IMG/VR virus record: IMGVR_UViG_3300021976_000040
Span: 1-38,332 of that record
Length of the DNA: 38,332 nucleotides
Source: a virus
Reading direction: 5' to 3' (one strand)
Shown here: positions 3,065-36,299 of the stretch, piece by piece
Layout: each line of letters opens with the position of its first letter
How positions within the stretch are numbered: the stretch's first letter is position 1
Notes under the pieces: generated by a model
The model's database searches: none
Seen by the model: only the letters and a program-made list of their open reading frames with translations
Told to the model about the DNA's origin: nothing
Translations under genes and position numbers: made by a program

Positions 3065-3235
3065 CGCAGGCCGCGTCGGCGCTCACGGCGGGCCACGCCG
3101 CTGGCCGTCCCGCGCCGCTCGCTTCAGCGCCGCGCTGGCGGCGGGGGGCGCCGTCCAAGGCGCAATAAACCACGCCTGGCGAAAGTTCCGCGAACGCTTT
3201 CGCGGGCGCGGGCGCGGCGAATCAACACGTTACGG

Positions 3236-3268
3236 CGCGAAAAGCGCGTAGAGTACGCGTTTTTCGCG
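3236..3268. promoter_or_regulatory. 33-nt dyad element, copy 1
   Basis: Near-perfect inverted repeat: 15-nt arms around GAG, core GCGCGTA-N3-TACGCG, outer arms CGCGAAAA and TTTTTCGCG, with one mismatch between arms. Similar elements occur at 12199-12231 and, more diverged, at 5950-5983. This copy lies 35 nt before the TTG start at 3304. A CATAAT -10-like hexamer at 3292-3297 follows it. It is likely a regulator-binding site. The rest of 3065-3303 is very GC-rich and shows no convincing gene. Confidence 0.6.
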
Positions 3269-3303
3269 TGCCGCGTGGGTCCGCCGGCGGGCCATAATGG
3301 TCT

Positions 3304-3516
3304 TTGGCGGAACGTTTACACGTTTTCGAGTGGGAGTCGCGTCGCGGCGAGGTTGCCTACGATGCATTCCGCGCGGCGTGCGCGGGCGTCGATCTGGCGA
3401 CGGGATTACCGTTGCCGGCGTTCGCGGATCTCTCCGATACCATGCGCGGGGTGTGGATCGATACCGCGGCGGTGGTGTGTGAACGCTTCGGCGCGCTCGG
3501 GGCCGCGATCGGCTAA
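3304..3516 (+). CDS. Small phage hypothetical protein, 70 aa
   Basis: TTG start at 3304, six nt after a CATAAT hexamer. The sequence carries AYDAFRAACAG near residue 18 and PAFADLSDTMRGVWIDTAAVV near the middle, a pattern I recognise from small uncharacterised phage and prophage proteins (Y-x-A-F...LP-x-F-x-DL...R-x-W). No function is known for these. It is the first gene of a four-gene plus-strand run that ends at 4288. The start codon is uncertain. Confidence 0.55.
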   Translation: MAERLHVFEWESRRGEVAYDAFRAACAGVDLATGLPLPAFADLSDTMRGVWIDTAAVVCERFGALGAAIG

Positions 3517-3525
3517 GCTGGCGGG

Positions 3526-3909
3526 GTGCCGAATGAGTCCGAGTACAGAATCGAATGGGTAAGTGGCGTTAATCAACGTGGCGAGCCGTTCATCCAACTA
3601 GCGAAAGTACAGAAGTCTGGTAAACGTGAGTTGATCGGACAATTTACGCCGGCTGAGGTGCGTGACTGCGCTGTCAACGGGTTGGAGGCTGCGGAGGCCG
3701 CGCAATCGGACGCGTTTATCATGCAATACCTTCAGCGTGAAATGGGGCTCGGGTTGCCTCAAACTGCGGCGTTTATTGCTGCCTTCCGCGACTACCGCGC
3801 AAAGCTCGGAACGTCTGACCCGGTACCATTGTCACACTGGAACGCGGTCATGGATGAAATGGCGCGGGAGAAGACGGGTAAACCGTTCGATCCGACAAAG
3901 AAACAATGA
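3526..3909 (+). CDS. Hypothetical protein, 127 aa
   Basis: GTG start at 3526, 9 nt after the previous stop. The N-terminal 45 residues look like beta-strands (EYRIEWVSGV, FIQLAKVQKS), followed by helices (EVRDCAVNGLEAAEAA, FIAAFRDYRAK) and a Lys-rich end DPTKKQ. Two consecutive helical segments near 45-75 could pack as a small bundle. No motif assigned. Its stop overlaps the next gene's ATG as ATGA (3906-3909), so it is co-translated with the zinc-ribbon protein. Confidence 0.65.
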   Translation: MPNESEYRIEWVSGVNQRGEPFIQLAKVQKSGKRELIGQFTPAEVRDCAVNGLEAAEAAQSDAFIMQYLQREMGLGLPQTAAFIAAFRDYRAKLGTSDPVPLSHWNAVMDEMAREKTGKPFDPTKKQ

Positions 3910-4100
3910 AAATCAATTGCTGCATCTGCGGGCGCGAGGAAGACAATCCCGAAGGGCTGCAGCCGCCGGTGGTCTGCGATCGTCCCGAATGCGGCGCGAA
4001 GGCGCGCGAAATCGGGTGGGCTCTGCTGCTCGAACAATACATCGAGGCGAAGCGCGGCGATGACGGCAAAATGATGTTTCGCATGCGGCCGCCGGCATGA
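3906..4100 (+). CDS. Zinc-ribbon-like small protein, 64 aa
   Basis: Contains CCICGRE near residues 5-9 and CDRPEC near 24-29, a four-cysteine arrangement typical of a zinc ribbon, then a helix (ALLLEQYIEAKRG). Such proteins bind nucleic acid or partner proteins; no specific role can be read. ATGA overlaps link it to genes on both sides (3906-3909 and 4097-4100). Confidence 0.65.
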   Translation: MKINCCICGREEDNPEGLQPPVVCDRPECGAKAREIGWALLLEQYIEAKRGDDGKMMFRMRPPA

Positions 4101-4288
4101 GTAATCCTGTTCCGTCGTCGGCATGGATCACCGTTCATGCGTCTTTCTCTGAGGGCGGTCAATCGTTAAAGTTAGTGTCGGAACCGATCGCGATCGAGGA
4201 AAGCGTACCGATCACGATTGAGTGGTCGATACCGTGGGATAAAAGCCTCCCTCCCGTGCTGCATTATGCCCGGCTCGGTCGGACCTAG
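4097..4288 (+). CDS. Hypothetical beta-rich protein, 63 aa
   Basis: Starts at the ATGA overlap 4097. The sequence alternates polar and hydrophobic residues (SLKLVSEPIAIEESVPITIEW), suggesting a small beta-sheet. No family recognised. It ends tail-to-tail with the minus-strand gene 4285-4503, the two stop codons interleaved in the tetramer CTAG (4285-4288), which supports both reading frames. Confidence 0.6.
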   Translation: MSNPVPSSAWITVHASFSEGGQSLKLVSEPIAIEESVPITIEWSIPWDKSLPPVLHYARLGRT

Positions 4289-4503
4289 GCGCGGCCGGCG
4301 GTGACGCGGCGGGCGAAGGCGTACAATTCCTCGCCGAGTTCGTCGAGGATCGCGGGCCGCGTGATCGCCTTCGCGGCAAGCTCGATGCCGGCGGCCACGC
4401 CGGTCGTGAACGCGCGACGCGCTTCGAGTTCGTCGGTCGGCGAGAGTTTCAAAAGCGTTCCCTCGCGGTAGTGCTTCCATTCGCGCTCGATGTGGTCACT
4501 CAT
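4285..4503 (-). CDS. Hypothetical protein, 72 aa (MSDHIERE family)
   Basis: Last gene of a minus-strand run that starts at 5929. The first eight residues, MSDHIERE, are identical to those of the upstream neighbour (4500-4847), encoded by an exact 22-bp repeat (4484-4505 and 4828-4849). The body is helical (ELEARRAFTTGVAAGIELAAKAI, ILDELGEELYAFARR). ATGA overlap with the upstream gene at 4500-4503. Function unknown. Confidence 0.7.
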   Translation of the reverse strand: MSDHIEREWKHYREGTLLKLSPTDELEARRAFTTGVAAGIELAAKAITRPAILDELGEELYAFARRVTAGRA

Positions 4504-4847
4504 TCTTCGTCTCTTTGTTCCCGCGCGGCGCGAAGGCGCTCTATCGTTTTCGTAGGGTCAAATGCATCGTACGGCCGCGGCTCGGGCATATTAAACGCGA
4601 TGCGCGCCTCGGCGACGAACGCGACGTATTTACAACCTGGCTTATGCTCGCCCGCGAAGTCGCCGCCACACGCCGGGCAGGGAAGCGGCTCGGGTGGCTT
4701 CAAGCCTGGAAACTGCTCCTCAATCAGTTTACGAATCGGGCACTCGGGCGTGTGCTCGGTCGCACCTCCCATGAGGTACGCGCCGCAGCCCGCGCAATGG
4801 GTCGGAAGCTCGATCTCGAACGGCTCCCGCTCGATGTGGTCACTCAT
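4500..4847 (-). CDS. Double zinc-motif protein, 115 aa
   Basis: Start chosen at 4847, where ATG overlaps the upstream gene's stop and gives the MSDHIERE N-terminus shared with the downstream gene; a longer frame to 4940 would overrun that gene. Two cysteine motifs are visible: CAGC followed by HTPEC, and CPAC followed by HKPGC, each resembling a C2HC or C4 zinc knuckle. A Pro-rich segment (PGLKPPEPLP) separates them. The C-terminus is charged. Likely nucleic-acid or protein binding; no assigned role. Confidence 0.7.
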   Translation of the reverse strand: MSDHIEREPFEIELPTHCAGCGAYLMGGATEHTPECPIRKLIEEQFPGLKPPEPLPCPACGGDFAGEHKPGCKYVAFVAEARIAFNMPEPRPYDAFDPTKTIERLRAAREQRDEE

Positions 4848-5017
4848 TCGGGTTTCTCGGCGATCTCGTCCCGGTTTTGCCAATAGGTCATCCAGACTCT
4901 CTCCGCAAGTTCGGGTTGTGTGAGTACGAGTTTGGCGCACTCGATATTAATCTTTCTAAGCAGGGCGGCTGATACCTTCCAGTTCTTGGGTAGCGGCTTT
5001 TTAGGATCCTCACTCAT
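4844..5017 (-). CDS. Small hypothetical protein, 57 aa
   Basis: ATG at 5017 overlaps the stop of the upstream gene (5014-5016), and its stop (4844-4846) overlaps the next ATG, so it fills the gap exactly. It begins MSEDPKKPLPKNWKVSAALL and continues as two helices (RKINIECAKLVLTQPELAERV, MTYWQNRDEI). No recognised motif. The perfect fit between neighbours is the main support. Confidence 0.65.
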   Translation of the reverse strand: MSEDPKKPLPKNWKVSAALLRKINIECAKLVLTQPELAERVWMTYWQNRDEIAEKPE

Positions 5018-5226
5018 CCCGCGAACTCCTCGGGGAGCGCGTACTGGTTGAAATGCGGGTTCGTCGCGTTGAGCTTGTTCGTAAAGGCGATGAAATGATA
5101 GAACAGCGTCTCGTTGACATCCTTGTGCGCGGCACCGGCTGCGAAACCAAGCATCATCAAGAGTTGGTCGTATTGCGCCTTCGTCATCTCAAGCGTTATC
5201 GTGTCGGCGTTTTCCGTGTACGTCAT
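5014..5226 (-). CDS. Small hypothetical protein, 70 aa
   Basis: Start taken at ATG 5226 (MTYTENADTITLEMTKAQYD), which overlaps the upstream stop at 5223-5225; the longer frame to 5313 overruns that gene. The sequence has an opening beta-strand then helices (QYDQLLMMLGFAAGAAH, LFYHFIAFTNKLN). It ends EEFAG just before ATGAG of the next gene, a junction nearly identical to that at 5393-5403. Function unknown. Confidence 0.65.
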   Translation of the reverse strand: MTYTENADTITLEMTKAQYDQLLMMLGFAAGAAHKDVNETLFYHFIAFTNKLNATNPHFNQYALPEEFAG

Positions 5227-5396
5227 GCGGTGGGCTCCGGAGGCGCGAAATGTTCCAGCAATGTGAGCAGGTTGGCTGTGGTTGGTTCTTCCATAAGACG
5301 CGCGCGTTTGCACTCGCCCAGCTCGACGTTCACCTTCGCGCCGGTCTCTTCGCTTTGCAGGATCAACGTTAGCGTAAATTTATCGTTGTCGCTCAT
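5223..5396 (-). CDS. Small hypothetical protein, 57 aa
   Basis: ATG at 5396 overlaps the stop of the helix-turn-helix gene (ATGA, 5393-5396) and its stop overlaps the next ATG. It begins MSDNDKFTLTLILQSEETGA, a two-strand pattern, then an acidic and leucine-rich helix (TANLLTLLEHF). No domain recognised. It is the second gene of the run headed by the regulator, so it is co-expressed with it. Confidence 0.65.
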   Translation of the reverse strand: MSDNDKFTLTLILQSEETGAKVNVELGECKRARLMEEPTTANLLTLLEHFAPPEPTA

Positions 5397-5929
5397 CCCG
5401 CGAACGCCTCCAAGCTGGCGCGCTGGACACGCCAGGCGCCGTGTACGCCGCCTTTCACGCCCACTATCTTACCTTCCGCGACGGCGCGCTCGATAAAGCT
5501 CTCGGCGAGTCCGCTCGCCGCGGACGCCTCCTCGATTGAGAGCCACGGTTTCGCCTCGACGCGGGCGAGAGCTCGCTCGGCGCGCGCGCCTTCGCGTTCT
5601 TCGCGAATGACTTTCAGGATTTCGAGCATCAATTGCTCTGATTTGCTGGTGTGCGTGGCAGCGGCGCGGACGAAGGGCGCCGGGGTCGTGGGCGAGTGGG
5701 GCCGCGGCTTGCGGCGCGGCGGGCCGTTGGTCTTCACCTTTTTTACGTCTTCGGCTCGATAGACGCGTTGGCGGCGGCCCGCGACCTGCTGCATTTTATA
5801 TTTGATGAATCCTTCCGACGCCCATTCTTGCAAAGTGCGGCGCGCGATCCCTAGTTCGCGCATCGTTTCGTCTGAAGTGAGCCAGTCGGCGGTTATAACC
5901 GATTGCTCTGTCTGTGTTGTGTCGTCCAT
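5393..5929 (-). CDS. Tandem helix-turn-helix regulator (excisionase/MerR-like)
   Basis: 178 residues from ATG 5929, preceded by GGGA at a suitable distance; an alternative upstream ATG at 5986 would add a basic 19-residue N-terminus and place the dyad element inside the gene. Two winged helix-turn-helix modules are visible: residues 15-65 (TSDETMRELGIARRTLQEW, then a basic wing and VYRAEDVKK), and 127-178 (LSIEEASAASGLAESFIERA, wing and WRVQRASLEAF). They are joined by a Pro-rich linker (70-90) and a helix (97-125). Each resembles the excisionase/MerR DNA-binding fold. It could be an excisionase, a lysogeny regulator or both. It heads the minus run and faces a repeat-rich control region. Confidence 0.75.
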   Translation of the reverse strand: MDDTTQTEQSVITADWLTSDETMRELGIARRTLQEWASEGFIKYKMQQVAGRRQRVYRAEDVKKVKTNGPPRRKPRPHSPTTPAPFVRAAATHTSKSEQLMLEILKVIREEREGARAERALARVEAKPWLSIEEASAASGLAESFIERAVAEGKIVGVKGGVHGAWRVQRASLEAFAG

Positions 5930-5949
5930 GAAACCATCCCGTTTTTTGG

Positions 5950-5983
5950 CGCGGCGCGCGCGTGGAATACGCGTATTTTGCGG
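5950..5983. promoter_or_regulatory. 33-nt dyad element, diverged copy 3
   Basis: Carries GCGCGT, then TACGCGTATTTTGCG (5968-5982), which matches the right arm of the copy at 12199-12231 with one difference. The left outer arm is poorly conserved. It lies 21 nt upstream of the ATG chosen for the helix-turn-helix gene. A binding site for that regulator is an attractive idea but unproven. Confidence 0.4.
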
Positions 5984-6008
5984 CATACGCGCATGTTAAG
6001 CACGCGTT

Positions 6009-6070
6009 GCTAGTACACGGTAGTACGGGCCGATTACACGGTGGGCGCGAACGTGTGCAACGGTACTAGG
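6009..6070. promoter_or_regulatory. CTAGTAC-type repeats in divergent region
   Basis: CTAGTAC at 6010-6016, TAGTACGG at 6021-6028 and the inverted form GGTACTAG at 6062-6069 cluster between the minus regulator gene and the plus gene at 6103. The same core, as CTAGTACGGT and its complement, brackets the gene-poor region at 8298-8307 and 8587-8596. This looks like an operator family. Confidence 0.4.
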
Positions 6071-6102
6071 GGCGCGTCTCCATCGCTGCGCGGGCGTGTG
6101 TA

Positions 6103-8983: not shown

Positions 8984-9394
8984 ATGACGAAGAAAGAAAA
9001 CGCGGTCGCTGCCCTGGCGTCATTGACGGACGAATTGGGCGATTTGGAACAGGAGCTCGCGCCGTGGCGTCAGAAATTCGCCCGCGTCGAGGTCCTGCGG
9101 GCGGCGCTGCGGGCCGCGTTCGCGTCCGGCGACGCCGGAAAGAGCTTCAAAACGGAGGGCGAGCGGTGGGCGGCGCTCATCGGGCCGATGGGCGGTGTGT
9201 CGGTCGTCGATCGTCCGGCGCTGTGGAAACTGATCGGGTCGCGCAAGTTCGTCGAAATCGCGGCGGTGAGTATTAAGGCGATCACGGACGCGTGCGGCGC
9301 TGGCGTCGTGGGCGCGGTCGTGAGCGTGAAACCGACGGGGCCGCGGTCGCTGGCGCTCGTGCCGGCGCCGCCGGCCGCGAAAGAGGTCGCGTGA
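8984..9394 (+). CDS. Hypothetical protein, 136 aa
   Basis: ATG 8984, preceded by GCGAAAGAAA. Begins MTKKENAVAALASLTDELGD with a coiled-coil-like helix to about residue 45 (ELEQELAPWRQKFARVEVL pattern), then a globular part with GERWAALIGPMGGVSVVDRP and a helix, ending PAAKEVA. The final codons contain AAAGAGG, serving as the ribosome-binding site of the next gene, a junction repeated almost exactly at 10168-10185. No family recognised. Head of the 8984-11042 plus run. Confidence 0.65.
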   Translation: MTKKENAVAALASLTDELGDLEQELAPWRQKFARVEVLRAALRAAFASGDAGKSFKTEGERWAALIGPMGGVSVVDRPALWKLIGSRKFVEIAAVSIKAITDACGAGVVGAVVSVKPTGPRSLALVPAPPAAKEVA

Positions 9395-10884: not shown

Positions 10885-11042
10885 CGTTAATCCTAATCGT
10901 GTTACTCGTCCTGCTGCTCGGCGGTGGCGGCGGCTGGTACGGCTATCAACGCTCGGGGCCGTACGGCGGCGCGTCCGCGCTCGGCGTGCTCGTTCTCGTG
11001 CTCGCGTTACTCTACGTGCTCGGGTTCCTGCGCCTTCACTGA
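10881..11042 (+). CDS. Two-span small membrane protein (DUF3309-like), 53 aa
   Basis: ATG 10881 overlaps the upstream stop as ATGA. Two hydrophobic spans: residues 2-14 (leucine and isoleucine) and 34-50 (ALGVLVLVLALLYVLGF), joined by Gly-rich WYGYQRSGPYGG. This resembles the DUF3309 group of tiny membrane proteins. A holin-like role is conceivable but the endolysin lies 10 kb away. It overlaps the tail of the minus gene at 11007 by 36 nt. Confidence 0.65.
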   Translation: MTLILIVLLVLLLGGGGGWYGYQRSGPYGGASALGVLVLVLALLYVLGFLRLH

Positions 11043-11365
11043 CGCGTCTTTCGCTGCACGCCAGGCGCGCCACTCGTCCATTGTCATCGTGGGCGGGATT
11101 ACCAAGCGTTCAAGTAACGCAATGTGGGGGAGGTCTCTATCGAGCGACTTTTGAAGCGCAACGTATACAACGCGCCATCCATCCATCGAAAACCGATTGA
11201 GTCGTTCGAGGTTTCCCCAGTCGAAGTAGAGTTCGATGTATTCGTAGGCGGGCGGCGGCACGCGTTCAGCGTATCGCGCCGGCGCTGGTACACGCCCGCG
11301 AGCGTGAATATCTCGCCGGGTTTGAGCGTGCTGGCGGGGTTTTCGGGCGGCCATGCGGTAATCAT
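11007..11365 (-). pseudogene. Frame-disrupted gene with duplicated N-terminal module
   Basis: ATG 11365 starts MITAWPPENPASTLKPGE, nearly identical to the start of the gene at 12106. After about residue 30 (GVYQRR) that frame degenerates into Ser/Thr/Asn-rich text, while the frame one base away becomes clearly protein-like: AYEYIELYFDWGNLERLNRF, then RVVYVALQKSLDRDLPHIAL and TMDEWRAWRAAKDAS, to the stop at 11007. One inserted base near 11280 would restore a single protein of about 120 residues. Alternatives are a separate GTG start near 11256 for the second part, programmed frameshifting, or a sequencing error. Function unknown. Confidence 0.55.
11284..11365 (-). repeat. 82-bp gene-start module, copy A
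   Basis: Aligns without gaps to 12025-12106 with 74 of 82 bases identical by my count. It encodes the first 27 residues of both minus-strand genes, including the start codon and WPPENPASTLKPGE. Confidence 0.85.
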
Positions 11366-11375
11366 AAAATTCATC

Positions 11376-11648
11376 ATGCACAACGTCGCGGTGTGGCTCG
11401 TCGGGTTCCTGCTCTCGGTGGGGTTGAATCTGATCCTCACTCGGATGGCCGCGCGGAAGGCGTTTAACTCGGTAGCAGACGAAAGGCGTGCGCTGGTGCG
11501 TAGGGTCACGATGGCGGAAGCGTCGCTGCTGGTGGCGCGGCTCGCGACCACATACACGGAAACGGGTTGCTCCCTCGAAACCTCTCTCGCGCTCATCGAT
11601 GCGAGCGAAGAATTGAACGCGCTTTCAGATGTCCCGCACCGTCTTTAA
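11376..11648 (+). CDS. Single-span membrane protein with helical tail, 90 aa
   Basis: ATG 11376 starts MHNVAVWLVGFLLSVGLNLI, one transmembrane span at residues 4-23, followed by a basic helix and an alpha-helical cytoplasmic tail (RRALVRRVTMAEASLLVARL, LETSLALIDASEELNALS). Topology suggests N-out/C-in. It begins 10 nt from the divergent minus gene, leaving no room for a conventional promoter pair. Its stop interleaves with the minus gene's stop in TTAA (11645-11648). Function unknown. Confidence 0.55.
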   Translation: MHNVAVWLVGFLLSVGLNLILTRMAARKAFNSVADERRALVRRVTMAEASLLVARLATTYTETGCSLETSLALIDASEELNALSDVPHRL

Positions 11649-11866
11649 TCGGCTGACGCGGCCGCCTTCCGCGTTTCAAGCCGCGCCAGGCGCCGGCGTA
11701 AATCGTCGCGCAGCGTATCCAAACGCAGCGTATAGCCGGGGTACAGACGCGGCCACGGAAACGCCTCGATCGATTCGAGGATGCGGCGCGTAAGCGTTGG
11801 GTCCTGGACGCTCGCCGTGCTGTCGCGAATACGCTCAAAAGCGCGCAGTGTTCCCGCAATATCCAA
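11645..11866 (-). CDS. Hypothetical protein, 73 aa, TTG start
   Basis: TTG 11866 opens MDIAGTLRAFERIRDSTASV; helical with basic C-terminal half (LRLDTLRDDLRRRLARLETR). It is in the same frame as the upstream gene 11870-12106, separated only by TGA TCT, so it could be reached by stop-codon readthrough or by reinitiation, or the two may once have been one gene. No family recognised. Confidence 0.5.
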   Translation of the reverse strand: MDIAGTLRAFERIRDSTASVQDPTLTRRILESIEAFPWPRLYPGYTLRLDTLRDDLRRRLARLETRKAAASAD

Positions 11867-11869
11867 AGA

Positions 11870-12106
11870 TCAGGGTATCCCCGGCTCCGGCGTTTCCTCG
11901 TACTCGATGTACGCGCCGGTTTCAATCGCTGCAGCGGAACCGGTGACGCGGAATGTTTGCAACCGGTCGGTGTAACGCTCCCATCCGAACACGCCCACGA
12001 ATCGCGAAAACCAATCGCGGCGCCGCTGGTACACGCCTTTGAGCGTGAACGTCTCGCCGGGTTTGAGCGTGCTGGCGGGATTTTCGGGCGGCCACGAGGT
12101 AATCAT
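11870..12106 (-). CDS. Hypothetical protein, 78 aa, shared N-terminal module
   Basis: ATG 12106 gives MITSWPPENPASTLKPGETF, continuing GVYQRRRDWFSRFVGVFGWE and a beta-rich end (TFRVTGSAAAIETGAYIEYEE). The first 27 residues are shared with the disrupted gene at 11365. The segment preceding the start, CTCAAACCTGGCGAA, also resembles an internal part of the module, so repeated duplication is likely. No family known. Confidence 0.6.
   Translation of the reverse strand: MITSWPPENPASTLKPGETFTLKGVYQRRRDWFSRFVGVFGWERYTDRLQTFRVTGSAAAIETGAYIEYEETPEPGIP
12025..12106 (-). repeat. 82-bp gene-start module, copy B
   Basis: Partner of 11284-11365 (74/82 identical). Differences are spread over the module and mostly in codon third positions or small blocks, consistent with an older duplication or two acquisitions of a shared gene-start module. 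Confidence 0.85.
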
Positions 12107-12198
12107 TTCGCCAGGTTTGAGTGAGCGGCCTCTCACCGCTCTGGGATGGGTTTATGCTGCCATCTGGCACTTCCAGGGTATCCCTTACCACGTCTGCA

Positions 12199-12231
12199 CG
12201 CAAAAAGCGCGTACATTACGCGTATTTCGCG
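12199..12231. promoter_or_regulatory. 33-nt dyad element, copy 2, upstream of NusG-like gene
   Basis: Same layout as 3236-3268: 15-nt arms around CAT, core GCGCGTA-N3-TACGCG, A-rich left and T-rich right outer arms; three mismatches between arms. It ends 22 nt before the GTG of the NusG-like gene. A TACTAT -10-like hexamer is at 12243-12248. Likely a control site for late transcription. Confidence 0.6.
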
Positions 12232-12253
12232 CCGTGAATGACTACTATAGATT

Positions 12254-12799
12254 GTGTTCGCTAGTTCGCCAGTAGCGATATCTGGGACTGAGAGCGCCTA
12301 TGGCGCGTGTTTTGGGTGGTACGCGATCCGCACTCGACCGCGCTTCGAACGCGCCGTCTGCCACGCGTTAGACCTCGCCGGACTCGATAGCTACGCGCCG
12401 ATCTACTCGGAACGCGTGCGCTGGTCCGATCGCGTCAAAATCGTCGATCGGCCGTTGTTTCCCGGCTACATCTTCTCTCGTTTCGACGCCTCGATCGGTC
12501 TCGACTGCCTCGATATCTACGGCGTCGTCCACGTCCTCCCGAACAATCTGCGGCCGCTCGCGATTCCCGACGACGAAATCCGCAGCATTCAAATCGTGTG
12601 CGACTCCGCGATGCCGTTATCTGAGGCGGAATGGCAACCGGGCGAAGTGCTCACGGTGGAACGCGGGCCGCTCAAGGGCGCGCGCGGCGTGGTCGTGCGG
12701 AACCGCGAGAAGGCCACGCTCACGGTTCAAATCGAAATGCTCGGCCGCGCGGTCTCGGTCACGCTGCCGGTGCAGGACGTATGGAAGTCGAAACACTGA
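12254..12799 (+). CDS. NusG/RfaH-family transcription elongation factor
   Basis: 181 residues from GTG 12254. Residues 21-115 match an NGN domain: GWYAIRTRPRFERAVCHAL, then YAPIYSERVRWSDR and the hallmark RPLFPGYIFSRFD, which contacts the RNA polymerase clamp. Residues 126-181 match a KOW domain (WQPGEVLTVERGPLKGARGV, VVVRNREKATLTVQ). Length and order are those of NusG paralogues of the RfaH/UpxY type. It would bind host polymerase and suppress pausing or termination. It is the first gene of the late plus-strand unit, 3 nt ahead of the methyltransferase gene, so it probably lets polymerase read through 24 kb of late genes. The exact start is uncertain in the first 20 residues. Confidence 0.88.
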   Translation: MFASSPVAISGTESAYGACFGWYAIRTRPRFERAVCHALDLAGLDSYAPIYSERVRWSDRVKIVDRPLFPGYIFSRFDASIGLDCLDIYGVVHVLPNNLRPLAIPDDEIRSIQIVCDSAMPLSEAEWQPGEVLTVERGPLKGARGVVVRNREKATLTVQIEMLGRAVSVTLPVQDVWKSKH

Positions 12800-12802
12800 A
12801 CC

Positions 12803-14143
12803 ATGGCAACGCTAACGAAGCGCGCGCCGCGCAAGCCGCCGGCGCAGTCTTCCGCGAAAAGCGGACAACTGCCGTCGCCGCTCGCGGTCGAGTCCTGGCC
12901 GCTCGATCGCTTCGTGCCGTACCTCGGAAACGCGCGCCGTCTCTCCGATCGCGCCGTCGCGGTGCTCGCCTCTAGCCTGAAAGAGTTTGGCTGGCAGCAG
13001 CCGATCGTCGTCGATAAGAAAGACGTCATCATCGCGGGGCATACGCGGCTCCTGGCGGCGCAGTCGCTCGGGCTGACGCACGCGCCCGCGCACGTCGCGA
13101 AGAACCTCACGGCGGCGCAGTGTGACGCGTACCGCATCATGGACAACCGGTCGTCTGAAGAGACCGACTGGATCAATGAATTACTCTGGCCGCAACTCCT
13201 CAAGCTCGAAAAGGCGGGAATCGATCTCGCGTTAACCGGCTTCACGCAGGAAGAGTTGAACGCGCTCTTGAAAGCCGCGTCGCTCGCGGCGGGGCAATGC
13301 GACGAGGACGAGGCGCCGGAACCGCCGGCGAATCCGGTCTCGGTACTCGGTGATGTGTGGACGCTCGGCGATCATCGCGTCATGTGCGGCGATTCGACGG
13401 ACGCGGAAACCACGCAGGCTCTGTTTGCGGGCGCGGTGCCGGAGGTCGTGTTCACCGATCCGCCGTACGGCATCGACATCGTCAAGGGCTCCAAAGTAGG
13501 AGGCGGCGGCAAGCTGAAATTTGGGAAAGTTGGGGGGAAAAATTGGGTGAACTCCTCAACATACGCGGCCATCGAAGGCGACTCGGACACGGCGGCGGCA
13601 CGCGGCTTCTATCTGGCGTCCAGCGCGGCTGGCGTTAAGCAGTTCGTGATCTGGGGCGGCAACTACTTTACCGACTTCCTGCCTCCGTCCTCGTGCTGGC
13701 TGATCTGGGATAAGCAGAATACGGGCAACTTCGCGGACGTCGAAATGGCGTGGTCGACGCTCCTCAAGGGCGCGGCACGCGACGCCGAAATGGCGTGGGC
13801 GTCGTATCCCAAGGGCGCGAAACTCTACTCCTATATGTGGAACGGTCTCGCCCGCGAAGGCGATCGCAAAGGCGAGCTCGTCTCGCGCGTGCATCCCACC
13901 CAGAAGCCGGTCGGACTCTTCGAGCGCATCTTCGGCGACTTCCCGTTCATGTCGTGTTACGACGGCTTTCTCGGCTCGGGCTCGACGCTGATCGCATGCG
14001 AAAAGACGGGGCGGCGCTGCTACGGCATGGAGCTCGCGCCCGCGTACGTCGACGTCGCGGTGCTCCGCTGGCAATCGTTCACGGGCCGCGAGGCGCTGCT
14101 CAACGGGGCCACGTTCGCGGAAGTGAAGGCGGCGCGTGAATAA
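12803..14143 (+). CDS. ParB-like domain plus DNA methyltransferase (N6/N4)
   Basis: 446 residues. Residues 30-130 form a ParB/Srx-like N-terminal domain (VIIAGHTRLLAAQSLG, MDNRSSEETDW). From about 180 it is a class-beta amino methyltransferase: VLGDVWTLGDHRVMCGDS, catalytic DPPYG at 219-223, HPTQKP at 364-369 and the S-adenosylmethionine motif FLGSGST at 389-395. It would methylate adenine or cytosine amino groups in phage DNA, probably for protection from restriction. Residues 314-332 show a local duplication: EMAW...KGA occurs twice, from a 45-nt tandem repeat near 13736-13825, where relatives usually have one copy. No partner restriction enzyme is present. Confidence 0.93.
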   Translation: MATLTKRAPRKPPAQSSAKSGQLPSPLAVESWPLDRFVPYLGNARRLSDRAVAVLASSLKEFGWQQPIVVDKKDVIIAGHTRLLAAQSLGLTHAPAHVAKNLTAAQCDAYRIMDNRSSEETDWINELLWPQLLKLEKAGIDLALTGFTQEELNALLKAASLAAGQCDEDEAPEPPANPVSVLGDVWTLGDHRVMCGDSTDAETTQALFAGAVPEVVFTDPPYGIDIVKGSKVGGGGKLKFGKVGGKNWVNSSTYAAIEGDSDTAAARGFYLASSAAGVKQFVIWGGNYFTDFLPPSSCWLIWDKQNTGNFADVEMAWSTLLKGAARDAEMAWASYPKGAKLYSYMWNGLAREGDRKGELVSRVHPTQKPVGLFERIFGDFPFMSCYDGFLGSGSTLIACEKTGRRCYGMELAPAYVDVAVLRWQSFTGREALLNGATFAEVKAARE

Positions 14144-14603
14144 GCGGAACAAGGCGAAGCAATCGGCGTTCATCGCCGCGTACTGCGTCACGGCATCGAT
14201 TACAAAGGCCGCGGAGGCGAGTAAGGTCAACCGCTACGCACATTACGACTGGCTCGAACGCGATCCGGCGTATCCGGCACGCTTTGAGCGCGCCAAGCTC
14301 GAGGCCGGCGAAACGCTCGAAGCGGAAGCGGTACGCCGCGCCCACGAGGGCGTGCTCGAGCCGGTGTACTACAAGGGCAAGCCGGTGGGCGTCATGCGTG
14401 TCTACTCGGACGCGCTCATGCAGACGCTGCTCAAGGGTTTTCTGCCGGACAAATACCGCGATCGCGGCTCGGTCGAGGTTTCCGCGCCGGGCGGCGGGCC
14501 GATATTACTCGAGGATTCACGGCTCGTGGCGCTCAACGATTCCGAGTTGGAAACGCTCATTGTTCTGGCGCAGAAGCTCACGCCGGAACCGGTCGCGCCG
14601 TAA
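14136..14603 (+). CDS. Terminase small subunit
   Basis: 155 residues from GTG 14136, overlapping the methyltransferase stop by 8 nt. The N-terminus has a helix-turn-helix pattern (AFIAAYCVTASITKAAEASK, HYDWLERDPAYPARFERAK) and the centre carries EAVRRAHEGV and DALMQTLLKGFLPDKYRDR, typical of phage small terminases that recognise the packaging site and stimulate the large subunit. Position at the start of the packaging module supports this. The C-terminus is acidic. The large subunit follows after four intervening genes, which is unusual. Confidence 0.8.
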   Translation: MNKRNKAKQSAFIAAYCVTASITKAAEASKVNRYAHYDWLERDPAYPARFERAKLEAGETLEAEAVRRAHEGVLEPVYYKGKPVGVMRVYSDALMQTLLKGFLPDKYRDRGSVEVSAPGGGPILLEDSRLVALNDSELETLIVLAQKLTPEPVAP

Positions 14604-16319: not shown

Positions 16320-16513
16320 GACGCAAGCGGAAACCGGCGTCGGGCGTGCCGCGCAAACCGGCGTTCACGATCGAGCGCGATCTCGACGGCTACGTGCATA
16401 CCGCGCTCGGGTTCATGAGCGAGGCCGCGTACCGTGTCGCGCAGCAACGCGATACGCTGCTGCTGCCGGCATATGAAGATATTCCCGTGATGGCGTTCTC
16501 CGTCTCTAAGTAA
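16316..16513 (+). CDS. Hypothetical protein, 65 aa
   Basis: Start ATG 16316 within ATGA; a longer frame to 16256 overruns the upstream gene. Basic N-terminus (MRRKRKPASG) followed by a helix (DGYVHTALGFMSEAAYRVAQ). Its stop TAA shares a base with the terminase ATPase ATG at 16513. Possibly DNA-binding given the basic start; otherwise unknown. Confidence 0.6.
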   Translation: MRRKRKPASGVPRKPAFTIERDLDGYVHTALGFMSEAAYRVAQQRDTLLLPAYEDIPVMAFSVSK

Positions 16514-17247
16514 TGTCCACTCTCGCGCTGCCACGCGCGTTACCGCCGACGCTGCCGGCGTTGGCGGATCTGCTCGCCGAACAACGCCGGCGCTCGCGGC
16601 GCAAGATCGATCGCATGTTTCCCGATACGGGGCCATACCGGCGAGAGCTCTACAAGAAACATATGGACGTGATCGCGGCCACGGCGATCTCGAATCAAGT
16701 AGCGTTTATCGCCGCGAACAAGATCGGTAAGTCGGAACTCGGTTGTTACTGCGTGAGTGTGTGGCTTACCGGCGAATACCCTCACTGGTGGAACGGACGG
16801 CGGTTTCCCCGTCCTACCACGATCTGGGCCACGGGTGAAAAAAACTCGGTCGTGCGCGATAGCTTGCAATTGAAGTTACTCGGGCCGCTCTCGGATATCG
16901 GCACGGGATTGATACCGGGCGATAGCATCGTGCGGGTCACGAGGAAGTCTGGGCTCTCGGACGCCATCGACACGTTGAGCGTGCGGCACGTCTCGGGCGG
17001 GCTCTCGTCGCTGCGGTTCAAAAGTTACGAGGAAGGTCGTACGGCGTTCCAGGCTACGGATCTCGACGCCGTGCTCATGGACGAAGAACCGGACTTGCCG
17101 TTGTATGTCGAGGCATTGATGCGAACTATGGTGCGGGTAGGCATAATGCTTTGCACTTTCACGCCATTAAGCGGCTGGAGTGAAGTGGTCGAGCAGTTTC
17201 TCGGCGCGGTTGGATCGACTGAATTACCAAGCGATGAGTTAGGGTGA
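16513..17247 (+). CDS. Terminase large subunit, ATPase part (split gene)
   Basis: 244 residues corresponding only to the N-terminal motor domain of P22 gp2-type large terminases. Walker A is seen at 67-74 (AANKIGKS) and Walker B with catalytic Glu at 185-191 (DAVLMDEE); the coupling segment TFTPLSGWSEV is at 215-225. It hydrolyses ATP to drive DNA into the prohead. In relatives this domain is fused to the nuclease; here a TGA ends it and the nuclease starts at an overlapping GTG (17244-17247). The two products together (488 aa) match the normal full length. Confidence 0.88.
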   Translation: MSTLALPRALPPTLPALADLLAEQRRRSRRKIDRMFPDTGPYRRELYKKHMDVIAATAISNQVAFIAANKIGKSELGCYCVSVWLTGEYPHWWNGRRFPRPTTIWATGEKNSVVRDSLQLKLLGPLSDIGTGLIPGDSIVRVTRKSGLSDAIDTLSVRHVSGGLSSLRFKSYEEGRTAFQATDLDAVLMDEEPDLPLYVEALMRTMVRVGIMLCTFTPLSGWSEVVEQFLGAVGSTELPSDELG

Positions 17248-17978
17248 GCGGAAAAATAACGATACAGGGCGGGTGGGATGACGTGCCGCATCTTGAGGAA
17301 GCAGCCAAGATCGAAATGCTGGCGGCAATACTTCCCTACCAACGCGACGCGCGCTCGAAGGGTATTCCTGACCTTGGCGCGGGCGCCGTGTATCCAATGA
17401 CTCAAGAGGACTACATTACCGATCGCAAGCCCGATCCGTCGTGGAAGCGCGCGTACGGGCTCGACGTCGGGCGAACCGAAACCGCGGCGGTGTGGATAGC
17501 GTTCGACCCGGAGCAATCCTTCGCGATCGCATATGAGGAGTACTGGCGCGGCGACGCAGAACCATCGATACACGCGGCCGCGATACGGGCGAAGGGCGAA
17601 TGGATACCGGGCGCGGTCGATCCCGCCTCGATCGCTGGCTCGCAGATTGACGGCCGCCAACTGATCGAACTCTATCGCGATCTCGGTCTCGATTTGACGC
17701 CCGCGGATAACGCGGTTACGGCCGGGACCGGAAAGGTCTGGAATCTGTTCAGTACCGGGCAACTCAAGATCGCGCGGCATTTGACGCACTTACTACGGCA
17801 ACTCAAGATTTACAGGCACGATGAAAAACACCGTATCGTGAAGGTGAACGATCACGGTCCTGACGCATTACGTTACTGCGTGATGACGGGGCCGGATATC
17901 ATGCGCGCGCGGCCGGCGTCGCTCTCGCTCGACTCGTGGCTGCGGCCGACGATCACGGGCAGCGGCTGGATGGGTTAG
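17244..17978 (+). CDS. Terminase large subunit, nuclease part (split gene)
   Basis: 244 residues from GTG 17244. It begins at the usual interdomain point (TIQGGWDDVPHLEEAAKIE) and contains the RNase H-like acidic residues Asp74 (GLDVGRTETAAVW), Asp126 (GAVDPAS) and Asp207 (VNDHGPDALRY), which bind metal and cut concatemers during packaging. The GTGA overlap keeps equal synthesis with the ATPase part. Reinitiation at GTG is the simplest mechanism; -1 frameshifting to a fusion is possible but no obvious slippery heptamer is seen. Confidence 0.88.
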   Translation: MSGKITIQGGWDDVPHLEEAAKIEMLAAILPYQRDARSKGIPDLGAGAVYPMTQEDYITDRKPDPSWKRAYGLDVGRTETAAVWIAFDPEQSFAIAYEEYWRGDAEPSIHAAAIRAKGEWIPGAVDPASIAGSQIDGRQLIELYRDLGLDLTPADNAVTAGTGKVWNLFSTGQLKIARHLTHLLRQLKIYRHDEKHRIVKVNDHGPDALRYCVMTGPDIMRARPASLSLDSWLRPTITGSGWMG

Positions 17979-18398: not shown

Positions 18399-20495
18399 AT
18401 GGCGAAGAAAGACGAACTCGACGAGCTCGACGCCATCGCTTTAATGCGCGAGAGGTTTCACGCCGCAGAAGAGGCTGAAATGCTCAACCGCGTCGCGGCG
18501 CTCGAAGCCATCGAATTCTATTACGGCGCGCAGTGGGCCGCGGACGTGAAGGCGGCGCGCCTGGCGGACGGCCGTCCTGCCTTTACCTTGAACCGTCTTC
18601 CGGCGATCGTGCGCCAGGTGCTCAACGAAGAACGCGCCGATCCGCCGGCTATCGAAATTCAACCGGAGGGCAACGGCGCGGACGATGACGGCGCGGAAGC
18701 GGCGCAGGGGCTGGCGCGGCACGTCGAAACGCACTCCGCGGCGCGCGACGCGTACGAAAACGCCTTCGAATACATGGTCATTGGCGGCTTCGGTAGCTGG
18801 CGCGTCACGCATGACTACCTGCCGCGGTCGATGGACCAGGAGTTATACGTCGAGCCCATCATTAATCCGTTTTCGGTCTACTGGGATCCTGCCTCGAAGA
18901 AGCTCGATAAATCCGATGCGCGTTTCGCGTTTACGGTGCTCGATCTGTCCTGCGACGAACACAACGACGCGTATCCTGACTCGGAGCTCGCCTCGGCGAC
19001 GGATTTCGCGGGCATGGGAAACCTCGCGCCCGGCTGGCTCAACAAAGACGGCGCGCGCGTCGTCGAATACTTCCACGTCGAAACGGAAGACGCGACGCTC
19101 GTGCAGTTGGTCGGCGGCGGGCCGATGGTCTATGACGATCAGATACCGGAGGGCGGTCTCGTCGCGCTCGGTCCTGATGGCGAGCCGATCTCGCGGCCGG
19201 ACAAGCGGCGTACCGTGTACGTCGCGCACTCGAACGGTATCGAGTGGTTGAAGAAACCGAAGAAACTCCCGACGCCTTCGATCCCGCTCGTGTCGGTGTT
19301 TGGCGAGCGCCTGATCGTCAATGGCGAAATGCGTATTAAGGGCATGGTCGAGGATCTGATGGAACCGGCGCGTATGTTCAACTACAACTCGTCGGCGGTC
19401 GCGGAAACGACATCGAACGCGTCGAAGGATTCCTGGGTCGCTACGGCTGAACAGGTCGAGCCGTACCAAAACATCTGGGCGGCGTCTTCCACGCGGAGAG
19501 TGACGGTCCTGCCTTACAAAAATATGCAGGGCGTGGCGCCTCCGTATAAGCCTTCGACGGAACCGCCGATCCAGGCCATCTCGGCGGCGCGGCAGCAATC
19601 GGCCGACGATCTGCGCGCCATCTCGGGCGTGTACGATGCCACGCAATCGCCGAACGGCGGCGAGGAGTCGGGCCGCGCGATCCTGGCGCGGCGGCACCAG
19701 GCGCGGACGGGCAACAATCACTTTTCGCAAAATCTGCGCGCCGGCGTCAAACGCACGGCCGAAATTCTGCTCGAGTATTTCCCGATCATCTATGACGCGG
19801 GCCGCGTGATGCGGATTATCGGGAAGGACCAGAACGAAAAGCAAATCATGGTACACGGTGGCCGGCCGGAAACCGTGCCGGCGGAACTACCCGAAAACGT
19901 AAAAGCCGTCATCGATCTGTCGCGCGGCAATTACGCGGTCACGATCGGGCGCGCGTACGACACGATGCGCGAGGAAACCGTCGAAATGATGCTTTCCCTC
20001 GTCGCCGCCGAACCGGCGCTCGCGCCGATCCTCGCCGATCTCATCGTCAACGAAATGAGTTTCCCCGGTAAGTCCGCGTTCGTCGAACGGCTCAAGCGCG
20101 CGCTGCCGGCGAACCTGCAGGATAACGATAATCCGACCGATCCTCAACAACTCCAGGCGCATAACGGGATGCTGATGCAGCAAAATCAGAAGCTCATCGC
20201 GCAAATCCAACAACTCGCGACGATGGTCAAAAACCAGACCGTCCAGGCGCAAAGCCGCGAAAAGATCGAAGCCATGAAGCTACGGGCGACGGCGATCAAC
20301 GCGCAGGTTAAGCTCGACGCAGAACGCCTCAAGGCGCGCTCCGCGATCCTGCTCAAGAAGGCCGACGCGGAATTTACCATTGCTCACGATCACGCGCTCG
20401 CGGATAAAAAGCACGTACACGACGTCATGCATGCTTCGCACGCCGCGAAGCTGAAGCCGGTCAAGCCGCAGCCGGGCGAGGGGTTCACGCAATGA
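18399..20495 (+). CDS. Portal protein (P22 gp1-like)
   Basis: 698 residues, close to P22 gp1 (725). N-terminal features include EFYYGAQWAAD and RPAFTLNRLPAIVRQVLNEE, both typical of the family; the middle has EYMVIGGFGSWRV, NPFSVYWDPASKK and ISGVYDATQSPNGGEESGRA. The C-terminal 150 residues are a long helical, Gln/Lys-rich barrel-like region (QQNQKLIAQIQQLATMVKNQ). The dodecameric portal forms the DNA gateway at one vertex and joins head to tail. It is followed at 1 nt by the minus-strand zinc protein. Confidence 0.93.
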   Translation: MAKKDELDELDAIALMRERFHAAEEAEMLNRVAALEAIEFYYGAQWAADVKAARLADGRPAFTLNRLPAIVRQVLNEERADPPAIEIQPEGNGADDDGAEAAQGLARHVETHSAARDAYENAFEYMVIGGFGSWRVTHDYLPRSMDQELYVEPIINPFSVYWDPASKKLDKSDARFAFTVLDLSCDEHNDAYPDSELASATDFAGMGNLAPGWLNKDGARVVEYFHVETEDATLVQLVGGGPMVYDDQIPEGGLVALGPDGEPISRPDKRRTVYVAHSNGIEWLKKPKKLPTPSIPLVSVFGERLIVNGEMRIKGMVEDLMEPARMFNYNSSAVAETTSNASKDSWVATAEQVEPYQNIWAASSTRRVTVLPYKNMQGVAPPYKPSTEPPIQAISAARQQSADDLRAISGVYDATQSPNGGEESGRAILARRHQARTGNNHFSQNLRAGVKRTAEILLEYFPIIYDAGRVMRIIGKDQNEKQIMVHGGRPETVPAELPENVKAVIDLSRGNYAVTIGRAYDTMREETVEMMLSLVAAEPALAPILADLIVNEMSFPGKSAFVERLKRALPANLQDNDNPTDPQQLQAHNGMLMQQNQKLIAQIQQLATMVKNQTVQAQSREKIEAMKLRATAINAQVKLDAERLKARSAILLKKADAEFTIAHDHALADKKHVHDVMHASHAAKLKPVKPQPGEGFTQ

Positions 20496-22590: not shown

Positions 22591-22635
22591 CCTGACACTT
22601 ACCGCGCCGGCGCTGTCCGGCGATAGGTGCTCGCT

Positions 22636-23859
22636 TTGGCAAACACAATTCTTACGCCTCTCATGATTACTCGTGAGGCGATGATGTTACTCGAAAACTC
22701 GCTGACTTTTACCAAACAAGTTACGCGAAAATATGACAATCTCTACGCGCAATCCGGCGCGAAAGTCGGCGCAACCGTTAACCTGCGGCTGCCGGCACAG
22801 TTCACGGTCTCGAACGGGCCAAACTTGGCCGTTCAGGATTACACGGAGACGTTTTATCCGCTCACCATCAATCAACAGAAGCATATTGATGTGTCGTTCT
22901 CGTCTCTCGAACTAACGCTCTCGATTCAAGATTTCTCGGAGCGCGTGCTCGCTCCGCAAATCGCGCAACTCGCGAATCAAATCGATATGGACGGGCTCGC
23001 GCAGTATACAAACGTCTATAACTCGGTCGGCGTGATGGGCACGCCGAATACGACGCTCGCGCCGTTCCTCGCGGCTGGCGTCGCGCTCGATAACACGGCT
23101 ACGCCGCGCGATATCGATAAGCGCAATATCGTCCTCTCGGCGCAGGGCCAGGCGGATATCGTCGGCGGCTCGCCGCTCACGTATTTCAACGATCAAGACA
23201 CACTCGCGAAGCAGTACAAGAACGGCACAATGGGCCGCGCGATCGGCTTCAAGTGGTCGATGGATCAGAACGTCGGGACCATGATTAACGGGCCGATGGG
23301 CGGTACGCCAGCGGTTAATGGCGCGTCGCAAGTCGGCGCCTCGCTCATCACGAACGCTTGGACGGCGGCGGCCGCGTCGCGGCTGCTCGGCGGCGAAAGC
23401 TTTACGCTGCCGCTCGTCTACGCGGTCAATCCGCTCTCCAAGGTCTCAACCGGTAAGCTGCAGCAGTTCCGGGCCGCCGCGGTCTCGTCCGACGGCGCCG
23501 GGAATGCCACGCTGACCATCTCGCCGCCTATCGTCACAACGGGCGCGGCGCAGAACGTCTCGAACTCGCCCGCATCGGGCGCGGTGCTTACGTTTGTCGG
23601 GGCCGCGAACGTGCAATGTCCCGTCGGACTGGCGTTCCATAGCCAGGCATTCGCGTTCGTGTCGGTCGATTTGGAAGACGTATCCCGCTATGGTGCCTGG
23701 GGGGCCAGGGTAAGTGATGACCAGTTGGGGATATCCATGCGTGTAGCCAGACAGTACGCTATAGGCACAGATACAGTACCCTGCCGCATAGACGTAGCTT
23801 ATGGTTGGGGTACGCCTAGGCCACAGATGGCCGCTAGGATATACGGAAGTAATACATAA
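22636..23859 (+). CDS. Major capsid (coat) protein, P22 gp5-like
   Basis: 407 residues from TTG 22636, chosen because relatives begin MANTILTP; GTG 22627 would add three residues. Family features include ANTILTPLMITREAMMLLEN, a beta-rich segment (SGAKVGATVNLRLPAQFTVS) and SIQDFSERVLAPQIAQLANQ. It is the HK97-fold coat with the P22 insertion domain, assembling around the scaffold. The last 60 codons (23680-23859) switch to ATA, AGG and AGA codons and low CpG, unlike the rest of the gene, yet the protein still fits the family, pointing to a recombined 3' end. Confidence 0.9.
   Translation: MANTILTPLMITREAMMLLENSLTFTKQVTRKYDNLYAQSGAKVGATVNLRLPAQFTVSNGPNLAVQDYTETFYPLTINQQKHIDVSFSSLELTLSIQDFSERVLAPQIAQLANQIDMDGLAQYTNVYNSVGVMGTPNTTLAPFLAAGVALDNTATPRDIDKRNIVLSAQGQADIVGGSPLTYFNDQDTLAKQYKNGTMGRAIGFKWSMDQNVGTMINGPMGGTPAVNGASQVGASLITNAWTAAAASRLLGGESFTLPLVYAVNPLSKVSTGKLQQFRAAAVSSDGAGNATLTISPPIVTTGAAQNVSNSPASGAVLTFVGAANVQCPVGLAFHSQAFAFVSVDLEDVSRYGAWGARVSDDQLGISMRVARQYAIGTDTVPCRIDVAYGWGTPRPQMAARIYGSNT
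23680..23859 (+). other. Compositionally foreign 3' end of coat gene
   Basis: In this 180-nt stretch all four Ile codons are ATA and four of seven Arg codons are AGG or AGA, codons that are rare in the rest of the gene; I count about 8 CpG, well below neighbouring segments of equal length. The change begins near the codons for EDVSRYGAW and stops at TAA. The protein remains family-like, so a homologous exchange with a phage of different codon bias is likely. Confidence 0.75.
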
Positions 23860-35500: not shown

Positions 35501-35964
35501 CGCAACTCGACGCGATCGCGCCGTCGGTACGTAACCAGGTGGAACGCATCGCGGCGCCGCTGGCGCAAGTCGAATCGCTCCCAGACTGGAACCTCACGCC
35601 CACGATAAAAAAGGCGCTCGTGCTCATTCGCGAGGCGGAGAAACTCGGCGTTAAGAATCTGGACGATTACATAACGCAGCAGGGCATGTTCGGCAAGGAG
35701 AATCTGGGCGCGGATGTGATCGATATGGCGCACGCGCTGAAGAGTGGCGGGGCGGAGTCGGTGAAAGCCGGCGCGCGTCAGTACGCGGAAGAAGCGGTCC
35801 ACGCGTCGAAGTCGGGCGGCAGTGGTATGTTCGGCGATCTTCCGACGCCGGCGCAATCGTTCCAGGACGCGTTCTCCGCGGAAGCCATCGCGGCGCGGAC
35901 GGCGGCGATCAAAGCAGCACGGGCAAAGCCCAACGCGAACGCGCTCGCGCCTAAGAAAAACTAG
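32581..35964 (+). CDS. Large ejection protein (gp16-like) with ddrB-ParB-like domain
   Basis: 1127 residues, larger than P22 gp16 (609). Start ATG 32581 with two copies of the short motif IDYAALAKQAGA / VDYTELAKKAGA at residues 5-30. Then a Gly/Ala hydrophobic region (GAAGTVVGTAGAIAAPALVA), helical mid-part, and a Gly/Ala/Ser-rich linker (676-735). From about 738 a ddrB-like ParB domain follows: DLNASHSGRTF, NGPLAIDPAGNVIGGNGR and PVLVREIPESEF, known from phage DarB-type injected proteins that act on incoming DNA. The linker coincides with a nested out-of-frame ORF (34607-34780). It is the last late gene. Confidence 0.82.
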   Translation: MATSTIDYAALAKQAGAITSAPAGVDYTELAKKAGAIASKPAADIPDAGKQMSESVKAAALDRMKLDNPYNFEDTSGGGFLESAGQSFMGAVKGLAHLPSFNDTSPTASGDAIKDVPAQPLQRVTDQALAGNLAGAAGTVVGTAGAIAAPALVAKGVAMVPGAARAVAGGVKLPRSGTPVQRAAVDYALEHGAPLDAAAATLNPLVRGTQELAQTTVGASSMAQRAILERNEWYAQHGRKLADEVHPTSATPETAARSVAEQGVKTIKASDAGASDAYAALRERELDPKNIVEVQTGTKKETRRLQTGKETVPYGDDMVDEHGNLATYEKPVFEDVTRDVPVTEKIAFPVDQGELQARFKPVLAQLERQTRLGQSQYAPAQLAVEDLTNGPRFVSASIAEKNLGALKRVVDNNTLTGGVRNEAGGLASAAVGELQNAIDSAVKQHGGVEALNDLHTGRLKTAGKYAAIDLVDQFKAEPVKLFEQLTQARDGGIELLNKVQELAPQQMPQLGRAWLDGALDKATESGGFGHADRLFTQWQNLGDKTKSILFKNPTLISDLGKFFQSAKDSATVEGVSKTAKVGHITAQGALVWSNPIAGGGYIVAGNVISRLLYNPRFVRAAIGAMKADATNPNMFAFAAKRLTEAAGVEAVPLSTQSADGVSTIGADVAPQLKGVNATSEGIRGQGQAVPGEAGGSATAGAGARAGGGSTDTTISIPGSSGGGYKAQYSLKELGDLNASHSGRTFSKNPAYKLTNERDYANAVNQGKVVEGASRSKFDPSLHITDNPDMANGPLAIDPAGNVIGGNGRKMILDRVYAGNPKGAAAYRAALEAKAAQFGLDPAAVKGMKQPVLVREIPESEFAGPNAKQDAITDFNKKGTAELTPGERAISDSRRVSAATLEHVAARLDSVGANATVADVLQGKGGGDVLAKLVGDGVVSPQEQAAFVTSEGELTPAGKSRISALMVGRFFRDPAQLDAIAPSVRNQVERIAAPLAQVESLPDWNLTPTIKKALVLIREAEKLGVKNLDDYITQQGMFGKENLGADVIDMAHALKSGGAESVKAGARQYAEEAVHASKSGGSGMFGDLPTPAQSFQDAFSAEAIAARTAAIKAARAKPNANALAPKKN
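34607..34780 (+). CDS. Possible nested overlapping gene, 57 aa
   Basis: ATG 34607 is preceded by GAAGGGAG, an excellent Shine-Dalgarno at 3-4 nt, inside the 1127-aa gene but out of frame. The product starts MQHPKELEDKGKRYRVRLEE and continues as a charged helix (ARLLALERARAADQ), a typical compact protein. In the host frame this DNA encodes only a low-complexity Gly/Ala/Ser linker. Translation is plausible; function unknown. A relic of a formerly separate gene is the alternative. Confidence 0.5.
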   Translation: MQHPKELEDKGKRYRVRLEEARLLALERARAADQPTQQSVSLEALAAATKPNTASKN

Positions 35965-36299
35965 GCGCGCCGCGGCCGTGAGGTTTCGCGCGCCATCGTT
36001 TCGCGAAGCGCGGCGTTTAGGTGCTGTTGATACTTTCCCGGCTTGCTCTTGAGCCATGCGACGATATCGGCGTCAATACGCACGGTAACGGGGGCTTTCT
36101 TGACTCGGTACATCGCGGCGAGCTCGGCGTCGGTGAGCTCTGGTATCTCTTTCAGATCGGCTTCGGTCGGGTCTGGGCCTTTCGCCTTGAGACGTGCCAC
36201 GGTCGCCCGAAATGCTGCTGATTTAGCGTACGCTCTGATATCGCTTTCGCTCCTTACGATGAGCTTTTCGCGCCGTGATGATCCTGCAGACTTTTTCAT
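35961..36299 (-). CDS. brnA: BrnA-like antitoxin
   Basis: 112 residues from ATG 36299. Middle and C-terminus match BrnA: PELTDAELAAMYRVKKAPVT, then VTVRIDADIVAWLKSKPGKY and QHLNAALRETMARE, the ribbon-helix-helix DNA-binding end. It neutralises BrnT and autoregulates the operon. The N-terminal basic part overlaps the 3' end of brnT by 77 nt. Its stop interleaves with the large ejection gene's stop in CTAG (35961-35964). Minus strand, after the late genes. Confidence 0.88.
   Translation of the reverse strand: MKKSAGSSRREKLIVRSESDIRAYAKSAAFRATVARLKAKGPDPTEADLKEIPELTDAELAAMYRVKKAPVTVRIDADIVAWLKSKPGKYQQHLNAALRETMARETSRPRRA

Follow-up and report, generated by a model that had tools for sequence, protein, structure and literature searches.

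The late operon of a P22-like phage is headed by a NusG paralogue for which late antitermination is the best reading: it is probable that this protein acts as a processivity (antitermination) factor for the phage late genes, and that it has a middle-promoter switch-on of its own. The window, that is, the whole stretch of DNA that was analysed, corresponds to an IMG/VR virus record (38,332 bases), and between 12254 and 35964 its main genes are all encoded on the + strand in the order NusG, ParB-methylase, TerS, split TerL, P22 portal, scaffold, P22 coat and tail genes; the original prediction was thus right in placing the NusG gene first in a 24-kb late unit. Judged by position, as is done for UpxY, the gene is the first of its operon, its regulation being a separate matter, and it lies between the replication and the terminase/late genes, which is the position of the Q class. 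The main genes are:

8984..9394, + strand: conserved gene with no assigned function, preceded by the same upstream element as NusG in most relatives
12254..12799, + strand: NusG-family paralogue (UpxY-type), 181 aa (Pfam, PHROG, NCBIfam, AF2 model and fold matches)
12803..14143, + strand: ParB-N6/N4 DNA methylase (Pfam, PHROG)
14136..14603, + strand: terminase small subunit (PHROG)
16513..17978, + strand: terminase large subunit, in two ORFs (16513-17247 and 17244-17978)
18399..20495, + strand: P22-type portal (Pfam)
22627..23859, + strand: P22-type coat protein (Pfam, PHROG)

To the left of NusG there are small minus-strand ORFs up to 12136, and duplicated small minus-strand frames that have MIT.WPPENPASTLKPGE.FTL.GVYQRRRD in common (11007-12136) adjoin it on that side. 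At the other end of the operon, a minus-strand gene pair (35961-36507) has, by eye, a likeness to BrnT/BrnA-type toxin-antitoxin systems. A homologue of the gene at 8984-9394, which has no PHROG match, precedes NusG in all P22-type NusG phages. The two TerL halves of the window overlap by 4 nt; in a truncated related record (L006), the split TerL region (3851-6088) has a minus-strand HNH endonuclease-like gene exactly between its halves, and L110 and G056 have a gap there, so that a homing endonuclease seems to have left the TerL gene in two pieces. A terminator scan of the late operon found no excess.

The ORF at 12254-12799 belongs to the NusG/Spt5 superfamily, with an NGN domain (WYAIRTRPRFE..RPLFPGYIFSRFD) followed by a KOW domain (VERGPLKGARGVV). 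It starts with GTG, a TAG lies in frame at 12248, and no Shine-Dalgarno sequence was seen at this start. The protein matches Pfam NusG (PF02357; 54.9 bits, E 1e-14), phrog_6386 'transcription antiterminator' (78.4 bits, E 1e-21) and, only just above the cut-off of 100, the NCBIfam UpxY model NF033644 (103.7 bits). The cut-offs of the RfaH equivalog (57.1 bits against 144.5) and LoaP (51 bits against 125) models were not reached, and the score with the NCBIfam NusG model was far under its own cut-off. An AlphaFold2 model built with 11 phage relatives (mean pLDDT 84) consists of an NGN fold and a C-terminal KOW beta-barrel; its top structural matches are solved NusG and RfaH, and PrfaH (9ik0) is among the fold matches. 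A NusG paralogue with clear NGN and KOW motifs, as had been predicted, is borne out by Pfam, PHROG, NCBIfam and AF2. The description as RfaH-like is not supported in the narrow sense, given the score with the RfaH model and a C-terminal domain predicted as a beta-barrel with no alpha-hairpin (in one AF2 model, fold switching being possible). Comparison with L006 over the 79 C-terminal codons rendered 16 synonymous-only and 11 non-synonymous codon changes, and the differences by codon position (10/7/22) fall mostly at the third, which argues that the protein is under constraint; the TerS proteins of both records are 76% identical.

Single-protein scans returned near-identical copies only, so that profiles were needed to find relatives, and a profile scan of viral contigs rendered 24 loci. 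The NusG proteins of ten distinct IMG/VR relatives (L099, L109-L116 and L100) show 32-44% overall identity to that of the window. In all ten, NusG precedes TerS/terminase and is encoded on the same strand, as is also the case in the truncated L006 record; the linkage in L116 (an 87.8-kb record), whose NusG falls outside the clade described below, is by a TerS-like match only. Other genes are found between NusG and the terminase in L112-L116 and L100, and two small + genes come before NusG in L100. A P22-type portal follows NusG in eight of the ten (part read), L111 having its portal elsewhere in the record. Every close relative hence has the gene ahead of the terminase, and homologues scattered with no link to late genes, which would speak against the prediction, were not what was found.

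A tree of 66 NusGs grouped the window protein and nine of its relatives in one clade (support 99/98), and the same ten-protein phage clade appeared in a rebuilt tree (support 98). The phage origin proposed for the gene is supported, as regards its phage character, by this clade apart from the bacterial NusGs. The portals of these phages are not one clade, with at least two placements forced and four changes by parsimony, and since the NusGs are, NusG appears to keep its slot across capsid lineages. Pfam NusG (PF02357) had no match in 47 other P22-portal records, many of which are fragments. The genomes searched for a host rendered no prophage with both NusG and a P22 portal; one of 396 genomes around an Acidobacteriaceae centre has a 34% portal match, but not on the contig that carries its NusG hit.

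Gibbs sampling of the regions from -150 to +40 of ten NusG genes rendered the element TGGYGACTA, with 16.25 bits as compared to at most 13.67 in shuffles. Counted from the first base of the element, the start codon follows after 14-21 nt, in most cases 18; L110 and L111 have their annotated NusG start at a greater distance (64 and 81 nt, respectively), and the annotated start overlaps with the element in L100 and L115. TGGYGACTA is also present before homologues of the window gene at 8984 and before the second sigma gene of L114, and on the opposite strand, before a divergent gene, in L099, L110 and L111. Variant bases agree within each genome, with TGGT in L112 and L113, TGCC in L114 and L115, and TGGCTACT in L099. 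For the strict element, the frequency per 100 kb is 9.5 in NusG+ P22 loci, a figure that takes in the sites that defined the motif, 0.12 in NusG- P22 loci and 0.10 in bacterial loci. A looser version has 16 occurrences in seven near-complete genomes and 0-5 in shuffles. The sites of L109 and L100 show no more than a loose fit to the element. In the window, the corresponding feature is:

12236..12253, + strand: degenerate shared element, GAATGACTACTATAGATT and then GTG, with the 18-nt spacing kept (Gibbs sampling, contexts)

This window element fits TGGYGACTA only in GACTA and in the 18-nt spacing, and no sigma-70 promoter was found for the window NusG. No clear conserved -35 box was found 5' of TGGYGACTA, so that its designation as a promoter stays a proposal. 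FliA-type -10 boxes have the sequence GCCGATAA, which is similar to GCCGACTA. A reading of TGGYGACTA as an ops or pause site was rejected, because it has no consistent Y-1 G+1 and precedes other genes too.

A sigma-70 region 4 was found above cut-off in six of the ten NusG+ relatives (G007, G054, G056, G059, where it occurs twice, G008 and G060); 28 NusG- P22 records had no match above cut-off, two of them giving weak matches. BLAST added one more sigma, in L112. The best NCBIfam models for these phage sigmas are FliA/WhiG, under their cut-offs. No sigma was detected in the window by tblastn or profile. L114 has two FliA/WhiG-like sigma genes (1414-2040 and 3080-3814), of which the second starts directly after the element TGCCGACTA, so that one sigma may drive the other.

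No ops-like recruitment site or pause could be assigned to NusG, the conserved element TGGYGACTA being found instead. This result, as well as the open beta-barrel predicted for the C-terminal domain, from which no autoinhibition is predicted, unlike in RfaH, would suit a global take-over of the host, in which the paralogue would replace host NusG on most RNA polymerases and free all phage DNA from silencing by Rho, recruitment to a specific operon playing no part. We consider this unlikely, since the gene invariably heads the late genes and is not among the early ones, and since the specialised paralogues studied to date act on few operons (PMC7819879).

The original prediction had also pointed to a dyad 22 nt upstream of NusG as the site that recruits the protein. 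The dyad is indeed located there, and the related features in the window are:

3236..3268, no strand assigned: dyad copy 2, 29/33 identical, with perfect 15-nt arms, where G007 has its sigma gene
5393..5986, - strand: HTH_17/MerR-type regulator, candidate dyad binder (Pfam)
5950..5982, no strand assigned: dyad copy 3, 24/33, before the HTH regulator
12199..12231, no strand assigned: 33-nt dyad copy 1, upstream of NusG, probable operator

Copy 1 has 15-nt arms, complementary at 12 of 15 positions, with a 3-nt gap, and ends 22 nt before the GTG; alone it is marginal, being equalled in 12 of 200 shuffles. In 20 shuffled windows, no match was better than 22/33, a value that the other two copies exceed, so that the dyad is a real repeated element. 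Copy 2 is at the position where the sigma gene sits in the collinear genome G007, and copy 3 precedes, by about 20-35 nt, the probable actual start (MDDTTQTEQ) of the minus-strand HTH regulator, which is a candidate for the protein that binds the dyad. Recruitment of NusG by an RNA hairpin or a DNA site, in a LoaP- or ops-like manner, would agree with the location of copy 1 and with its folding as a hairpin, and LoaP requires a leader hairpin (PMC12691694). The RNA fold of copy 1 is, however, no better than that of shuffles (z = -0.5), neither of the two further copies is at the late operon, and the dyad was not found in relatives of the window phage, where the upstream hairpins of L099, L110 and L111, once candidates for the LoaP type, are actually paired divergent start elements back to back. 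Recruitment by the dyad is therefore judged distinctly unlikely, and its two further copies, one of them before a regulator gene, make it probably a palindrome of the operator type.

Late antitermination, the preferred reading, would be the outcome of a cascade from a sigma or operator switch to NusG and from NusG to the late genes. NusG would be made from a dedicated middle promoter, which in the relatives would be located at TGGYGACTA and tied to the phage FliA/WhiG-like sigma; in the window phage, its synthesis is apparently under the dyad operators. The NGN domain would bind the elongating host RNA polymerase on its passage through the start of the late operon, and the polymerase would then withstand pausing as well as stops due to Rho or terminators throughout the 24-kb packaging-head-tail unit, the KOW domain coupling it to ribosomes. 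Both role and genome slot would be those of lambda Q and P22 gp23.

The slot formed by a replication gene, NusG, in some cases HNH, and TerS/TerL is also present in L121, L124, L127, L128 and Sinorhizobium phage phi3LM21, the terminases of the four L records being of the TerL_ATPase/TerL_nuclease type. Labrenzia phage vB_LagS-V1 and Bradyrhizobium phage ppBjS10J-1 have like NusG placements, with early/replication genes on one side and the HNH/TerS/TerL region on the other, although in ppBjS10J-1 the neighbours of NusG are annotated as hypothetical only. A tree with all phage NusGs forced into one clade was rejected (AU test, p 4e-6), which indicates that the slot has been filled at least twice and that, as judged from these sequences, the alphaproteobacterial phages have a NusG of separate origin in the same slot; long branches in this set limit finer statements. 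In Microcystis phage vB_MweS-yong2 (L132, 6779-7444), an annotated NusG closes the replication block near the record end.

Antitermination of long operons is the function of UpxY, LoaP and RfaH (PMC7819879, PMC12691694), and plasmids as well as chromosomes are known to carry NusG paralogues dedicated to such operons (PMC7593976, PMC7819879). Like UpxY of the Bacteroides capsule operons, whose model cut-off it passes, the window protein is encoded first in the operon that it is thought to read through; in contrast, this operon is for phage packaging and head and not for capsule, no UpxZ partner was seen in the window, and the phage members are a clade of their own. RfaH and the plasmid proteins ActX and PrfaH are, like it, NGN-KOW NusG paralogues for long xenogeneic operons, but the window protein differs from RfaH in the model score and the predicted C-terminal domain, and no ops was found. 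LoaP is also a NusG paralogue beside its operon, its model score again setting it apart, and no UNCG hairpin was identified. The nearest bacterial NusGs are from Acidobacteriota and other phyla, many of them UpxY-like and adjoining Wza/Wzc polysaccharide-export genes, and because these best-related proteins serve capsule/EPS operons, the function in the phage is read from position alone. Such relatives, many in Acidobacteriota, might suggest a moron, that is, a bacterial UpxY gene acquired by the phage that alters capsule expression of the lysogen, but this is highly improbable given the separate phage clade, the constant location ahead of the terminase and the lack of any EPS gene or moron-like insertion around NusG.

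Lambda Q, P22 gp23 and PBR31 Q share with the window NusG the slot between replication and terminase genes and a presumed late-switch role, whereas the proteins are unrelated. The late promoter at which Q acts lies downstream of the Q gene itself; the window NusG gene, on the other hand, lies inside its operon. None of 38 records, among them PBR31, had a match to the Pfam Q family, which is uninformative for the NusG- relatives, so that the comparison with Q rests on position and annotation. Among phage-borne proteins, that of phi3LM21 is annotated 'transcription antitermination protein NusG', and a NusG-like protein of a Helicobacter pylori prophage has been suggested to be an antiterminator (PMC11321410), both being single annotations. 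The searchable literature rendered no description of the slot, its recurrence or the clade of phage NusGs. A search for papers on phage NusG paralogues as late switches, in literature largely without subscription journals, found only the H. pylori prophage suggestion and database annotations.

Phages are known to control late genes by antitermination through Q-type proteins, p7 of Xp10 and put RNA, and the NusG copies are probably a second, undescribed phage way to switch on late genes, beside Q proteins. More tentatively, NusG paralogues could represent a recurrent, independently evolved class of late switch that replaces Q. In the P22-like clade, a sigma would then act on TGGYGACTA middle promoters, with leaderless or nearly leaderless starts, to produce NusG as the last step of the cascade, and element and reader would co-evolve, as suggested by the agreement of variant bases within each genome. 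If this is true, a universal cellular elongation factor would have been repeatedly turned into a phage late switch, in the same slot of unrelated phages, and phi3LM21, vB_LagS-V1 and ppBjS10J-1 would be defined phages for RfaH/UpxY-type recruitment on one long operon.
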